Shown here one piece after another: positions 1-40,368 of a DNA stretch of 52,970 bases (its first letter is position 1; the number at the start of each line of letters is the position of its first letter). A program made the translations under genes and the position numbers. The DNA comes from Thermoanaerobaculia bacterium (GTDB lineage: Bacteria > Acidobacteriota > Thermoanaerobaculia > Multivoradales > JAHEKO01): NCBI GenBank assembly GCA_945787635.1, contig CALZIK010000037.1, positions 1 through 52,970 of the forward strand, written 5' to 3'. The notes beneath the pieces are model-generated. The model was given only the letters and a program-made list of their open reading frames with translations. It did no database searches and was not told the DNA's origin.

Positions 1-21
1 ACACGGAGGTCGACCGCTACA
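1..21 (+). repeat. Intergenic palindrome, right part only (cut by window edge)
   Basis: The first 21 bases are the end of the left arm, a loop ACGGAG (3-8), the right arm GTCGACCG (9-16) and the tail CTACA (17-21) of a palindrome that recurs through the window. It lies 25 bases past the pirin stop codon. Together with the reversed copy at 1025-1049 it brackets the pirin gene. Confidence 0.75.
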
Positions 22-8066: not shown

Positions 8067-9452
8067 CTAAGCCTGCCGTTTCGCAGTCTCCGCGACGTGC
8101 TCGAGGACTCGCTCGTGGATCCGGTGGACGATCCAGTCGGACCACAACCTCCAGTAGAGCGTCGGCGCGATCCCCAGCTCGTACCAGGTGGTACCGGCGA
8201 GAAGCGTTCTTCCTTGCCCAGCTGACTCCATTCGGAACTCGCCGCGAACCGCGCGAAACCCGCTGTCGAGGTGCGCGGTCGCGAGCTCCGCGTACGGAGA
8301 GAGCTCGCGCATCGCGTCCGGGTTCTCGACAACATCGAACGCCAGGAGCCGCCCTGGCTCCCACACCGTCACCGGCTCGACGAACGCGCCGGTCGAGAAC
8401 TCGCAGCGCCGGACCGCGCCCGGACCCGAACCGTCGATCGTAGCTCCCACCGGGTACGCGATGCCAAGCCGAAACGGCCACCACGCGGGCTCGTCCAGTC
8501 GCGGAAAAGCGATGACGCTCTGCCACACCGCCTCCGGCGCGGCGTCGATTCGAATCGACGTGGTCACCGCGAACACCTGCGGCGCTACGCGTTGGCCGAC
8601 CCTGCCCTCCGCCCACCCGAGTAGCGGGATAGCCGCTGCCAGGAGCCACAGCGCCGGCGTGGAAGCGTGCCCGGCGAGTGCGACCGAACGGCCCAGGACG
8701 GCGCCGAGAATTGCACCGGGGTAGGCGATCGGCGCCGCCATGGCCAAGCAGATCGCTCCTTCGAGCCCGAAGATCAACGCGAAGCCCATCGCCAGGGTCA
8801 CGGCGACGATCGCCACTGCCACCGACTCGCTGAGGGCCCGCTCCCGCGCACGGTTGTAGGCTGACGCGCTCGCTGCTCCGATCAAAACCGGCGCTCCGAG
8901 AAACACCGCGTAGCCGTAAATCGATCCCACAAAAAAGAAGATCGCGGTCACGGCCACCGTGATGAGCACGCCCCAGCCGATGCCCTGGAGCGCCGCAACC
9001 ACGCGCACGCGGGCCTCTGCGTCGTCGCGCGTTCCGTCTGCGCCGACGACGGGACGCACCCAGGCTTCGGGCTTGCGATCCGGCGCAATCGCCAGGGCGA
9101 GCATCAGAACGTAGTTCAGCCCCGGCACGAAAAACAGCATTCCCCACCACGGCGAGACCCCGGCGCACGCCGCCCGCCGCAAGCTCATCGACACTCCGAT
9201 CCACGCGAACGGCAGCGCCCACAGCACCAGAAACCAGACCCACGCGGTCTCGTTCAGATCCAACGCGCCCCAGCGCTCCACGAGCAACGGGCTCAGGTAG
9301 TCCCACGGCGCGAGCCACATCCCCGTGGTGTATCGCACGACCGCGGTGTCGACCGAGTACTTGAGCGCCAGCAGACCGAACCCGGTGAGAGCGTAGGCGC
9401 GCCGCAGCACCGGACGAGAGAAGCCGAACCAAAGTCGGAGGAGGTCCTTCAA
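8067..9452 (-). CDS. Multi-pass membrane protein with C-terminal SRPBCC domain
   Basis: A protein of 461 residues. Residues 1-300 hold about eight hydrophobic segments, with a DUF805-like stretch in the first third. Residues from about 305 to the end look like a SRPBCC (START/polyketide-cyclase fold) domain, with SIRIDAAPEAVWQSV at its start and FSTGAFVEPVTVWEPGRLL inside. These domains bind hydrophobic ligands, so the protein may take a lipid-like ligand at the membrane; this is inference. The start is a TTG at 9452. A TAGGAT hexamer nine bases before it and no Shine-Dalgarno sequence fit a leaderless mRNA. The upstream ATG is out of frame. Confidence 0.78.
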   Translation of the reverse strand: MKDLLRLWFGFSRPVLRRAYALTGFGLLALKYSVDTAVVRYTTGMWLAPWDYLSPLLVERWGALDLNETAWVWFLVLWALPFAWIGVSMSLRRAACAGVSPWWGMLFFVPGLNYVLMLALAIAPDRKPEAWVRPVVGADGTRDDAEARVRVVAALQGIGWGVLITVAVTAIFFFVGSIYGYAVFLGAPVLIGAASASAYNRARERALSESVAVAIVAVTLAMGFALIFGLEGAICLAMAAPIAYPGAILGAVLGRSVALAGHASTPALWLLAAAIPLLGWAEGRVGQRVAPQVFAVTTSIRIDAAPEAVWQSVIAFPRLDEPAWWPFRLGIAYPVGATIDGSGPGAVRRCEFSTGAFVEPVTVWEPGRLLAFDVVENPDAMRELSPYAELATAHLDSGFRAVRGEFRMESAGQGRTLLAGTTWYELGIAPTLYWRLWSDWIVHRIHERVLEHVAETAKRQA

Positions 9453-13135: not shown

Positions 13136-13162
13136 TGTAGCGGTCGACCTCCGTGTCGACCG
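13136..13162 (-). repeat. Intergenic palindrome, reverse orientation
   Basis: TGTAG, then CGGTCGAC, loop CTCCGT, then GTCGACCG. Perfect eight-base arms. It lies between the sigma factor start and the end of the hicB-like gene, in a 190-base gap with no gene. Confidence 0.8.
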
Positions 13163-19174: not shown

Positions 19175-19201
19175 TGTAGCGGTCGACTTCCGTGTCGACC
19201 G
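19175..19201 (-). repeat. Intergenic palindrome, reverse orientation
   Basis: TGTAG, CGGTCGAC, loop TTCCGT, GTCGACCG. Perfect arms. It lies between the divergent DUF885 and DUF2892-like genes. Confidence 0.8.
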
Positions 19202-23680: not shown

Positions 23681-23780
23681 GACGGTCGACAGGGACGTCG
23701 ACCCGCTACATCGGGATTCGGTCGACAGGGGCGTCGACCCGCTACATCGGGATTCGGCCGATAGGGGCGTCGACCGCTAC
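23681..23780 (+). repeat. Tandem array of three intergenic palindromes, 36-bp period
   Basis: Three units start at 23683, 23719 and 23755, exactly 36 bases apart. Unit one and unit two have arms CGGTCGAC and GTCGACC with one extra C before GCTACA; unit three has a changed left arm, CGGCCGAT. Loops are AGGGAC, AGGGGC and AGGGGC. The spacer is TCGGGATT. The gap 23559-23994 contains no gene that I can support. Confidence 0.85.
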
Positions 23781-23838
23781 GCGAGGTGGGCGAGCTCGAT
23801 TACGTCTTCCTCTGCATGAGGACGTCAATTCACCTCGC
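23781..23838. other. Long imperfect hairpin next to the palindrome array
   Basis: Outer arms GCGAGGTG (23781-23788) and CACCTCGC (23831-23838) are perfect. Inside, ACGT (23802) pairs with ACGT (23822), and CCTC (23809) with GAGG (23818) around a TGCAT loop. It starts one base after the array and is unlike the palindrome family. Confidence 0.4.
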
Positions 23839-25273: not shown

Positions 25274-25334
25274 CGGTCGACAGGGGCGTCGACCGCTACA
25301 TCGGATTCGGTCGACAGGGGCGTCGACCGCTACA
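25274..25334 (+). repeat. Two tandem intergenic palindromes, 34-bp period
   Basis: Units at 25274-25300 and 25308-25334, both CGGTCGAC-AGGGGC-GTCGACCG-CTACA with perfect arms. The spacer is TCGGATT. They lie 29 bases upstream of the glgC -10-like hexamer. Confidence 0.88.
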
Positions 25335-33884: not shown

Positions 33885-34013
33885 GGGTCGACACGGAGGT
33901 CGACCACTACAGGCGGGCTCGGTAGCAGAAGAGGTCGACACGAGCAGGTTCGAGCGCTGGGAGTTGATGCAGACCTTGCTGGTGCCTGTAGCGGTCGAGC
34001 CCTGTCTCGACCG
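33885..34013. repeat. Three intergenic palindromes, including an inverted pair
   Basis: A forward copy at 33885-33911 (GGGTCGAC, ACGGAG, GTCGACCA, CTACA). A degenerate forward copy at about 33932-33957. A reverse copy at 33987-34013 (TGTAG, CGGTCGAG, CCCTGT, CTCGACCG). In the last, both arms changed together (C to G and G to C), so the hairpin is kept. The outer copies face each other. Confidence 0.75.
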
Positions 34014-36543: not shown

Positions 36544-37269
36544 ATGCCGTTTGTTTCGGTGGGCGACACCTCGATCCCCTACACCATCAAGCGCAGCTCG
36601 CGCGCGCGGCGGATCCGTATCGTCGTGCGACCGGGTCGAGTCGAGGTCGTGGCGCCGCGGCTAACGCGACACGGGACGATCGTCGCCTTTGTCGAGTCGA
36701 AACGCCGCTGGGTCTTCGAGAAGACCGAAACGTTGCGCGAACGCGAGCTGGTGGCGACGCCGGCTCGGTTTGTCACGGGAGCGAAGGTCCTGTTTCGCGG
36801 AAGATGGCTGCGCGTGCGAGTGACTGAAGGTGCTCGCTCACGCCGGCCTGCGAATTCCCTACGCTTCGCGAACGCCTTCCACATCACCGTTGCCCCGGGT
36901 TTGACGGATGGCGAGCGCGAAAAGATTGCGAAGAATCTGGTGATGGGCTGGCTCAAGAACCGAGCGCTCGAAGATGCCAGCGGCTGGGCCAAGAGCTACG
37001 GCGCAAAGCTCGGTGTATCCCCCACCCAACTGCGAATCGGAAACCAGAAGACGCTTTGGGGAAGCTGCTCGCCGCGGGGGGTAGTGTCACTCAACTGGCG
37101 TTTGGTCGCTTCCCCGAAGCCGATCTTCGAATACGTGGTCGTCCACGAGCTGTGCCACCTGAAGGAGCGAAACCACGGGCGCAAGTTCTGGGAGTTGGTG
37201 GGGTCGCTTCTCCCCGACTTTCGCGAGCGCAGGGCGTGGTTGCAGCGCCACGGCGTGGCGCTGGGATAG
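36544..37269 (+). CDS. YgjP-type (DUF45) M48-like metallopeptidase
   Basis: A protein of 241 residues. It opens with the beta-strand domain of YgjP proteins (VEVVAPRLTRHGTIVAFV region), then a helical domain. The zinc-binding HELCH motif lies at residues 201-205, with a third ligand probably His211 in RNHGRKFW. RIGNQKTLWGSCSPRGVVSL is the typical signature just before it. It is a soluble cytoplasmic protein of normal length. The physiological substrate is not known. It lies 39 bases after the GH113-like gene and has its own -10-like hexamer. Confidence 0.92.
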   Translation: MPFVSVGDTSIPYTIKRSSRARRIRIVVRPGRVEVVAPRLTRHGTIVAFVESKRRWVFEKTETLRERELVATPARFVTGAKVLFRGRWLRVRVTEGARSRRPANSLRFANAFHITVAPGLTDGEREKIAKNLVMGWLKNRALEDASGWAKSYGAKLGVSPTQLRIGNQKTLWGSCSPRGVVSLNWRLVASPKPIFEYVVVHELCHLKERNHGRKFWELVGSLLPDFRERRAWLQRHGVALG

Positions 37270-37280
37270 CCGTCGTCCCT

Positions 37281-37577
37281 TGTAGCGGTCGAGCTCTGTC
37301 TCGATTGAACGGGAGACGGTCGACAGAGACGTCGACCGCTACAACTGGATTTGGGTCGACAGAGACGTCGACCGCTACAACTGGATTTCGGTCGACAGGG
37401 ACGTCGACCGCTACAACTGGATTTCGGTCGACAGAGACGTCGACCGCTACAACTGGATTTCGGTCGACAGAGACGTCGACCGCTACAAACCTCGCCGTGC
37501 CGGAGACGGTTGACAGGGACATCGACCGCTACAAACTCGCCGTGCCGAGACGGTCGACAGAGACGTCGACCGCTGCA
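37281..37577 (+). repeat. Tandem palindrome array, eight units
   Basis: A reverse-oriented unit (37281-37307, loop CTCTGT) is followed by seven forward units at 37317, 37353, 37389, 37425, 37461, 37507 and 37551. The first five forward units are exactly 36 bases apart with identical spacer ACTGGATTT (one ends TTG). The last two have another spacer, with the phrase CTCGCCGTGCC, and periods of 46 and 44. Loops alternate between AGAGAC and AGGGAC. Most arms are perfect. No gene lies in 37270-37717. Confidence 0.92.
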
Positions 37578-37638
37578 CAGCTGATGGACAGTCGGAAACA
37601 TCGGCGCCTGAGCCCAACGTTTCTCATCCAGAAACATT

Positions 37639-37700
37639 ACGCTAAAAAATTAGCGTTTACCCCTTGACAAGCCCTCTAAAGTGCGAATATTTTAGCACTT
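37639..37700 (+). promoter_or_regulatory. Promoter with two phased operators for the BlaI-like repressor
   Basis: Palindrome one is ACGCTAA-AAAA-TTAGCGT (37639-37656). Palindrome two is AAGTGC-N10-GCACTT (37679-37700); read in reverse it shares the core GCTAAAA-N-ATT-N-GC with the first. The centres are 42 bases apart, four helical turns. TTGACA (37664-37669) and TATTTT (37688-37693) are separated by 18 bases, and the second palindrome covers the -10. Confidence 0.75.
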
Positions 37701-37717
37701 CCAAAGGAGACCGTCTC

Positions 37718-38107
37718 ATGGCCAAAGACATCAACCAGGAACTGAGTCGCCGAGAGCGGCAGATCATGATCGCCCTGTTTCGACACGGCACGGCCTCGGT
37801 CAAGGAAATCGCCGAAGCGATCCCGGACCCGCCCAGCGACACGGCGATTCGCACGTTCTTGCGGATTCTCGAGGACAAGGGCTTCGTGAAGCGCCAACGC
37901 GACGGCCGCAAGCACATCTACCGACCGTCCATGTCCCGGGCGCGGGCCGCGCGCAACGCGTTGACAAGCGTACTCGGGACCTTCTTCGAGGGTTCTCTCG
38001 GCGAGGCCGTGGCCGCGCACCTGGCCGATCCGGCGGCAAATGTGGATCGCGCCGAGTTGGATCGCCTGCGCCAGATGATCGACGACGCGCGAAAGGAGAC
38101 GACATGA
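37718..38107 (+). CDS. BlaI/MecI/CopY-family transcriptional repressor
   Basis: A protein of 129 residues, normal for this group. AAAGGAG before ATG 37718 sets the start, not the earlier in-frame codon at 37664. The winged helix is residues 8-80: LSRRERQIMIALFRHGTASV, then SDTAIRTFLRILEDKGFVKR, and the wing with HIYRPSMSR. The C-terminal helices (90-129) form the dimer. Family members bind palindromic operators as dimers and are released by cleavage through a BlaR1-type peptidase. Its stop overlaps the peptidase start (ATGA), and a pair of operator-like palindromes covers its own promoter. Autoregulation is therefore very likely. Confidence 0.94.
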   Translation: MAKDINQELSRRERQIMIALFRHGTASVKEIAEAIPDPPSDTAIRTFLRILEDKGFVKRQRDGRKHIYRPSMSRARAARNALTSVLGTFFEGSLGEAVAAHLADPAANVDRAELDRLRQMIDDARKETT

Positions 38108-40368
38108 CACTGCTGGTACTGAAGATCACTCTCCTTTTCGCTCTTGGACTGGCGCTGCCGCCGGTTCTCCGAAAGGCCTCGGCGTCGACGCGCCATCTAG
38201 TGATCGTGACCGCCCTGGTCGCGAGCCTTCTGCTCCCGGGCCTCCTGCCGGTGATGCCGGCCTGGGAGGTCCTTCCGGTTCAGAAAGCGGCGCCCGCGGC
38301 GACGCCGAAAGAGGCTATCTCTGGAATATTACCGGCGAGCGAGCCTCGAACCGAGAAACCCGCGATACCGGCGAATGCTCGCGGCAGTGCCCGAGTCGCC
38401 GCGGAGCCCAGTGGACTGAAAGTGCTCTGGAGCCGCGCGCTATCGCTCCCCAGACGCTTCGGCTGGCCGGCCCTCGCGGCGACCTGGGCGGCGGGCGCCG
38501 TCGCCATGCTCCTTCTCCTGGCGCTCCGGCTCGCGAGCACCCATAGGATCGTCGGTCGATCCGACCCGGAGCGCGACCCGGAACGGCTCAGCCTCCTCCG
38601 TGAGCTCGCCGAATCCCTCAGCATCAGAAGGGCGGTGGCCTTGCGCCGGCGGGGACCCGGCGGGATGCCGATGGTCTGGGGTTTCCGGAGGCCTGTCGTT
38701 CTCCTGCCGGCGGACTCAGATGAATGGTCCGGCGAGCGCTTGCGCGCTGTACTCGCCCACGAGCTCGCGCACGTCGCGCGGAGCGATCTCGCGGCCCTTT
38801 TCATCGGTCATGTCGCCTGCGCGGTGCACTGGTTTCATCCGCTCGCCTGGGTTCTGAAACGGCGGCTCGCCACCGAGCGTGAAATCGCCTGCGACGATAT
38901 GGCGCTCGGCCAAGGCATCGAGCCTAGGCGGTACGCAACTCATCTGCTCGACATCGCCGCCGCGTGCGGCTCCACCCGCTCTCTGGCTCCGGTCATGGCG
39001 GCGAGATCCCAACTGGAGGGACGAATCATGGCAATTCTCGACGACAATCCAAACCGCGGCAACGCTTCCCTGACCGCTCGCACCACGATCGCCGCCCTCA
39101 CTCTCGCTTTGGCCATTCCGCTGGCAAGCTTGACCTGGGCACGCGCCGCCACGAAAACCGTGGTGATCGCTCCTGGGGCGGTCGCCTCGGTTCCCGATCG
39201 GAAGTCGGACGTCGCCCAGTTCAACGAAGAGCTCCAGCGCCTGAACTACGTGGTGGCCGACGTTTCCCGGCTGATCGCAGGCCTCGACGCGAACCGACCC
39301 GAGACACGTGCCGCCTGCGCATGGGCGCTCGGCGAGAACGGCGATCCCCGGGCGGTCGAACCGCTGATCGAGACACTCGACGACCGCTCCGACAAGACCC
39401 GGGAGTGGGTCGCCCGATCGCTCGGCCGGCTCGGCGATCCGCGCGCGATCGATCCGTTGATCGAGCGGCTTGATGACGACAGCCCAGCGGTGCGGGAATG
39501 GGTGGCACGCTCTCTCGCCGAGCTCGGCGATCCGCGCGCCGGCCTCCATCTGATCGGCAACCTCGACGACCCGGATCCGGACGCTCGGCAATGGGCAGTG
39601 AGAGCGCTCGCCGATCTCGGGGACGAGAAAGCGGTCGAGCCTCTTCTCGCCCGGATCCACGATCCCGATGCCGAGGTGCGCCAGTGGATCGTGCGTGCCC
39701 TCGCGGACCTCGGCGACAAGCGAGCGATCCCAGGGGTGCGGCAGCTCCTCGATGATCCCGACGCTGAAGTGCAGGAGTACGCGGTGCGGGCACTCGGTGA
39801 CTTGGGCGTCGAGCGCCGAGACTGGCACTGGGATCCGAAGCGCGAAGAACCGCTGATGCCAAGCCTCGACGACACGCCGCCCAAGCCTGGCGACCCCGAG
39901 TCGATTGCGTCACTCATCCGGTCGCTCGGGAGCGAGGACGCCGACGTACGCCAGTGGTCGGCCCGCTCGCTCGGAGACATCGGCGACGCGAGCGCCGTCA
40001 CGCCGCTCATTGCCCTCATCGCCGACGAGAATGCCGAAGTCCGCGAGTGGGCAATCCGCGTGCTGGGCATGCTCGGAGATGCGCGAGCCGTGACTCCACT
40101 GCTCGACGCCCTCGACGACGCCGAGCCCGAGGTGCGCGAATGGTCGGTGCGGACCCTGGGTACTTTTCAGGACGCGCTAATGTTCAATCCGTTGGTTGAC
40201 CGCCTCGCCGACCCTAGCGCCGACGTTCGCGAGTGGGCGGCCCGGGCGCTCGGAGCCTACGGCGATCCCAGCGCGATCGAGCCCCTCACTTCGCTTCTCG
40301 ACGACGAGGACTCGGACGTGCGGCGCTGGGCCGAGCGCGCCGTCGAGGCGATCCGAAGTCAGGGATAG
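38104..40368 (+). CDS. BlaR1-like M56 peptidase with HEAT-repeat sensor domain
   Basis: A protein of 754 residues. Membrane segments lie at about 1-20, 30-53 and 122-143. The M56 zinc-peptidase domain follows, with the motif H219-E-L-A-H223, a third ligand in TEREIACDDMA, and HWFHPLAWVLKRR. A fourth membrane helix is at 328-346. In BlaR1/MecR1 a penicillin-binding sensor domain follows this helix. Here there is instead an array of about ten HEAT-type repeats of 31 residues (398-754), with consensus close to VREWAARALGDLGDPRAVEP. One repeat has a 28-residue insert containing WHWDPKREEP. By topology the array should lie outside the cytoplasm, so the signal is unlikely to be a beta-lactam. It is coupled to the repressor by ATGA. 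Confidence 0.92.
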   Translation: MTLLVLKITLLFALGLALPPVLRKASASTRHLVIVTALVASLLLPGLLPVMPAWEVLPVQKAAPAATPKEAISGILPASEPRTEKPAIPANARGSARVAAEPSGLKVLWSRALSLPRRFGWPALAATWAAGAVAMLLLLALRLASTHRIVGRSDPERDPERLSLLRELAESLSIRRAVALRRRGPGGMPMVWGFRRPVVLLPADSDEWSGERLRAVLAHELAHVARSDLAALFIGHVACAVHWFHPLAWVLKRRLATEREIACDDMALGQGIEPRRYATHLLDIAAACGSTRSLAPVMAARSQLEGRIMAILDDNPNRGNASLTARTTIAALTLALAIPLASLTWARAATKTVVIAPGAVASVPDRKSDVAQFNEELQRLNYVVADVSRLIAGLDANRPETRAACAWALGENGDPRAVEPLIETLDDRSDKTREWVARSLGRLGDPRAIDPLIERLDDDSPAVREWVARSLAELGDPRAGLHLIGNLDDPDPDARQWAVRALADLGDEKAVEPLLARIHDPDAEVRQWIVRALADLGDKRAIPGVRQLLDDPDAEVQEYAVRALGDLGVERRDWHWDPKREEPLMPSLDDTPPKPGDPESIASLIRSLGSEDADVRQWSARSLGDIGDASAVTPLIALIADENAEVREWAIRVLGMLGDARAVTPLLDALDDAEPEVREWSVRTLGTFQDALMFNPLVDRLADPSADVREWAARALGAYGDPSAIEPLTSLLDDEDSDVRRWAERAVEAIRSQG

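Follow-up and report, generated by a model that had tools for sequence, protein, structure and literature searches.

What is the regularly spaced palindromic array at 37281-37577 of the 52,970-nucleotide window (the whole stretch of DNA analyzed here), and does its 36-bp period carry a meaning of its own? A sequence-only reading had described eight units, five of them exactly 36 bases apart with a constant spacer, together with a second 36-bp array at 23683 and a pair of period 34 at 25274/25308, and had taken the shared period of apparently unrelated arrays to mean that spacing is selected, or is set by the mechanism of amplification. We find that the array is best explained, with a probability of roughly 93%, as a tandem cluster of GTAG-tagged REP elements of the REPtron/BIME type, within an account in which the REPs are mobile. 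This assignment follows from the GTAG-tagged hairpin, the copy number, the intergenic sites, the subtypes, the inverted pairs, and a REP-flanked RAYT transposase gene.

Structure and setting of the array

The array consists of eight 27-nt palindromic units, seven in the same orientation and one inverted (Table 1), with start-to-start distances among the seven of 36, 36, 36, 36, 46, and 44 bp. On the plus strand the seven read CGGTCGACAGAGACGTCGACCGCTACA or a close variant; on the minus strand, which carries the GTAG, the unit is TGTAGCGGTCGAC-GTCTCT-GTCGACCG, in which a GTAG tag precedes a GC-rich stem with a small loop. The stem measures 8-9 bp and the loop 4-6 nt, and the fold as single-stranded DNA has z scores of -3.9 to -4.6. 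The four spacers of the five-unit, 36-bp run all read AAATCCAGT on the GTAG strand, and Tandem Repeats Finder scores the 36-mer array at 330, so the coordinates and spacers originally described are confirmed, as are the array at 23683 (Tandem Repeats Finder period 36, 2.8 copies, score 168) and the presence of the pair at 25274/25308. Chance is excluded as an explanation: the unit core is matched 17 times in the window with at most three mismatches, against a mean of 0.02 in shuffled sequence. The inverted REP at 37281 and the unit at 37317 form an inverted pair that resembles a REPIN or BIME, and the palindrome is also found singly in the window, at 1, 13136, 19175, 33885, and 33987.

Table 1. 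REP elements and neighboring genes in the window
Feature	Coordinates	Strand	Remarks
Truncated REP, subtype B	1..21	-	at contig start; window is the whole of contig C37
Single REP, subtype B	13136..13162	+
Single REP, subtype B	19175..19201	+	TCTT tail
Second REP array, 3 units	23683..23781	-	36-bp period; two units carry GTAGCGGGTC, one extra base
REP pair, subtype A	25274..25334	-	34-bp spacing; tail AATCCGA then TCTT
REP, subtype B	33885..33911	-
REP, subtype C	33987..34013	+
YgjP-like metallopeptidase gene	36544..37269	+	PF01863, 182.5 bits; ends 12 bp before array
Inverted REP, subtype C	37281..37307	+	TGTAGCGGTCGAGCTCTGTCTCGATTG; 3' foot degenerate
REP unit 1, subtype A	37317..37343	-	GTAG on minus; spacer to inverted REP TCTCCCGTT
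REP unit 2, subtype A	37353..37379	-	36-bp period
REP unit 3, subtype A	37389..37415	-	GTCCCT loop; 36-bp period
REP unit 4, subtype A	37425..37451	-	36-bp period
REP unit 5, subtype A	37461..37487	-	36-bp period
REP unit 6, degenerate subtype A	37507..37533	-	46 bp from unit 5
REP unit 7, subtype A	37551..37577	-	GTAG to GCAG; 44 bp from unit 6
Candidate blaI promoter, sigma-70-like	37664..37693	+	TTGACA-18-TATTTT; consensus match only
BlaI/penicillinase-repressor gene	37718..38107	+	PF03965, 96.3 bits

Short palindromic repeats at regular spacing recall CRISPR or some other adaptive or defense repeat, but the chance that the array is of this kind is negligible. The spacers are identical or share their tails, single copies of the repeat are also present at dozens of intergenic positions, and an Rfam search of the window found no RNA family; constancy of spacers and dispersal together refute CRISPR, from which the sequence-only reading had already set the array apart by its constant spacers. 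Among the flanking genes (ygjP-like, blaI, and M56-HEAT) there are no cas genes.

The array had also been placed directly upstream of the BlaI/M56 promoter. This stands insofar as its last unit ends 87 bp before a -35-like hexamer, but only 12 bp separate its start from the stop codon of the ygjP-like gene, a position typical of REPs between same-direction genes (PMC3733652), and a link to the promoter is unsupported. It is very improbable that the array serves as a platform for regulating the blaI-M56 operon, with its 36-bp spacing selected, for example, for phased binding of a protein such as gyrase, IHF, or BlaI; although the -35/-10 pair is a good one and several arrays have periods of 34-36 bp, REPs of this family adjoin many unrelated genes and favor convergent gene ends, and the periods of other arrays (see below) also argue against it. 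The promoter candidate is itself overlapped or flanked by two dyads (CGCTAAAAAATTAGCG and AGTGCGAATATTTTAGCACT, within 37638-37702) that are candidate BlaI operators, and positions 38104-40368 encode a BlaR1-type M56 peptidase joined in one protein to a long series of HEAT/PBS-lyase repeats (PF13646, PF03130).

The transcript of the ygjP-like gene probably includes the array in its 3' untranslated region. The hairpins of the array may affect RNA ends, but the array need not have been selected for any function. Selection of the array as an intrinsic terminator or as an RNA-stability element at the 3' end of ygjP, which would be compatible with the REP explanation, is unlikely. Its position just behind the stop codon, a strong RNA fold (z of -6), and the location of REPs of other species near 3' ends (PMC3733652) speak for such a role, whereas the array contains no U-run terminator and the elements are dispersed through the genome.

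Genome-wide distribution of the palindromic unit

The core GGTCGAC-N6-GTCGACC occurs at 204 sites in the 4.36-Mb assembly and the reversed-pattern control at none, and exact GTAG-tagged copies number 170 genome-wide (control, 0). In a sampled part of roughly 0.9 Mb, made up of 60 stretches (about 0.85 Mb) and the window, there are 183 sites, compared with none in a first-order random control. The genome contains at least 150-200 scattered REP copies. With gene calls from a simple codon-bias caller written for this analysis, coding sequence makes up 89% of the total, yet 145 of 155 strong sites are intergenic; the other 10 fall in two short ORFs of doubtful standing, both overlapping the arrays. 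By clusters, 1 of 58 falls inside a predicted gene, and the intervals between convergent genes are enriched in clusters (odds ratio, 3.6; p 0.0007); in other species, according to PMC3733652, REPs typically sit near 3' ends or between same-direction genes.

Three subtypes can be told apart: subtype A, with loops GTCCCT, GCCCCT, or GTCTCT; subtype B, with loop CTCCGT; and subtype C, with the pattern GGTCGAG...CTCGACC. Comparing one genome per species, we found 118 exact copies of subtype A in this genome and 0 in 7 relatives; subtypes B and C are shared with G002 and one further genus-mate, and with two members of the family that belong to other genera. Subtype A is accordingly limited to one genome among those tested, with B and C common to relatives in the genus and family. 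A composite of type A, 8 nt, and inverted type C recurs on contigs C112, C107, and C70. Inverted REP pairs are therefore found as units, as in REPINs and BIMEs, but REPs also occur singly and the REPIN is not the sole unit. On C70 (L064, 37-386), a 96-bp BIME-like unit is repeated four times head to tail, each consisting of a type C REP, AATCAAGA, an inverted type A REP, and 34 bp.

The arrays also leave a mark on the assembly. The first 400 nt of contigs, which make up 2.7% of bases, contain 34 of 139 REP sites, a nine-fold enrichment; arrays therefore break the assembly, and unit counts are provisional. Near its end (near 8857), contig C2 carries a REP as at the window start, with a matching flank; because the first bases of the window match this flank, C37 and C2 probably adjoin, and the break between them probably falls at the REP. 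Synteny of the array locus within the genus is limited to partial matches in two relatives, at 68-69% identity, none of which spans the array.

A REP-flanked transposase gene and the CT dinucleotide

Contig C112 encodes a 157-aa protein that matches NF047646, "REP-associated tyrosine transposase", at 92.4 bits (cut-off, 80), as well as PF01797, and that matches the TnpA-REP of PDB 4er8 in sequence (E 2.5e-6). H70-x-H72 and Y128 are invariant, giving the HUH motif and the catalytic tyrosine, and subtype A REPs flank the gene on both sides. This is the one close RAYT copy in the genome. The nearest relatives of the protein are two RAYTs, 57-59% identical, in genus-mate G002, at loci that match the MAG 'Acidobacteria bacterium B78T1B8'; one has subtype B/C REPs on both sides, and the other has a GTAG-tagged palindrome of a GTAGCGGTCGCG variant alongside. 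One of the two G002 genes, a second RAYT of the same clade, is on contig C41 (L109 / L145) with its own hairpin type, GTAGCGGTCGCGCTCGTCGCGACCG, beside it. The pairing of RAYT and REP is not seen everywhere, since G009, a MAG about 86% complete from a related genus, has 119 exact copies of the GTAG-tagged pattern and no close RAYT, with 34% identity at best.

As a candidate partner, a Y1-domain gene on contig C97 was rejected, since it scores 47 bits against the RAYT cut-off of 80, and its 3.2-kb locus contains no exact REP core of this family. This second Y1-domain gene (C97:22289-25531, L017; 345 aa) has a different palindromic repeat, GAAGAGGGTGGCACCTCTTC, at its flanks, and of the 11 copies of AGGGTGGCACCT in the genome, 7 lie on C97.

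In 17 of 28 isolated copies a CT dinucleotide stands at offset 1 beyond the hairpin foot, where about 1.7 such copies are expected (p 1e-14), and the last units of arrays show it in 11 of 26 cases (p 1e-7). Cleavage by TnpA-REP has been mapped to a CT next to the REP (PMC8266576). The CT signature suggests, indirectly, that a cleavage site marks the end of the units, and it is not proof of transposition. The elements combine a 20-40 bp hairpin-forming palindrome, a 5' GTAG, high dispersed copy number, extragenic location, and the CT, the features by which REPs are recognized. The REPs were probably dispersed by the RAYT of this genome, a proposal that rests on co-location and homology. In such a process, the C112 RAYT, as an HUH and tyrosine nuclease, would bind the single-stranded GTAG-hairpin and cut at the adjacent CT, and the GTAG-hairpin-CT unit would be copied into intergenic sites.

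Array periods, array origin, and known systems

In the sampled part, a script found fourteen runs of at least three evenly spaced units, in addition to the 23683 array, with periods of 34, 35 (three runs), 36 (two), 37-38, 39, 39-40, 43-44 (four or five runs), 66, and 76-77 bp; runs in G009 have periods of 39, 41, and 54 bp. Other arrays with periods of 34-36 bp do exist in the genome, as anticipated, but they are not unrelated: all belong to one dispersed REP family, and their short spacers often share an AATC or TCTT tail. The notion that spacing is selected or mechanism-set fails, with constant-spacer arrays of this same family extending from 37 to 77 bp beyond the 34-36 bp class and differing again in the related genus. 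Spacers are nearly identical within each run and often start AATC or TCTT, like the tails of single copies. A period equal to the 27-nt unit plus the tail of its founder (9 nt here) needs neither selected spacing nor a mechanistic ruler.

The identity of the spacers suggests that, once inserted, one unit of REP plus tail was duplicated in tandem, and the earlier suggestion that repeat and spacer were amplified together is upheld in this form. We infer slippage or unequal exchange as the array-forming step: a short-tailed REP adjoining another REP would be duplicated together with its tail, which would yield identical spacers and a period of 27 nt plus the founder tail. In the 12-unit run on C107, units recur in blocks, as expected of unequal exchange, slippage, or multi-unit duplication. 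It is unlikely that the RAYT makes constant-spacer arrays directly, for example by repeated strand transfer or by rolling synthesis from a cut REP, rather than slippage or recombination doing so. RAYT homologues do cut and join single-stranded REP DNA (PMC8266576), and arrays adjoin the RAYT gene on C112, but the spacer of the window array lacks the CT cleavage dinucleotide, and the blocks on C107 fit multi-unit duplication. Slightly less likely still is the extension of this idea in which the RAYT itself builds head-to-tail arrays by single-strand cutting and joining, so that array length would record transposase activity.

The array is an ordinary locus that gives no hint of a new mechanism. 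The wider interest lies in the record of a full REP/RAYT system from an acidobacterial lineage that has been little studied, and in the three related RAYTs of one genus, each with its own hairpin type, which could be used to study co-evolution of transposase and hairpin. The REP family is not described in the REP literature cited here; it is a known kind of repeat, and the family and the acidobacterial host are new.

Among known systems, the family resembles the GTAG REPs and REPtrons of E. coli, Pseudomonas, and Stenotrophomonas (PMC3733652). Both have a GTAG 5' of a 20-40 bp palindrome, lie in intergenic regions as singletons, dimers, and tandem groups, and include a REP-flanked transposase gene; the differences here are a new stem, GCGGTCGAC/GAG, and the acidobacterial lineage. 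The one acidobacterial case among the passages of PMC3733652 consulted is Koribacter versatilis, where the genes are TIR-flanked rather than REP-flanked. The REPINs and tandem REP arrays of Pseudomonas fluorescens SBW25 (PMC3116915) likewise show inverted pairs, tandem REPs including flanks, and regularly spaced arrays of a single REP type, but with periods of 72-184 bp, whereas periods here are mostly 34-44 bp and many arrays are of single REPs. E. coli BIMEs share the mosaics of REPs in both orientations and the short conserved spacers, as in the 96-bp unit on C70, although the stem here is perfect, without the E. coli bulge, and the units are mostly head to tail. Finally, the C112 RAYT shares with E. 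coli TnpA-REP (PDB 4er8) the HUH motif, the YI..NPV.. tyrosine motif, and the WQ..F..H region, and differs in its length of 157 aa and in its perfect-palindrome REPs, which by description place it closer to group 3.
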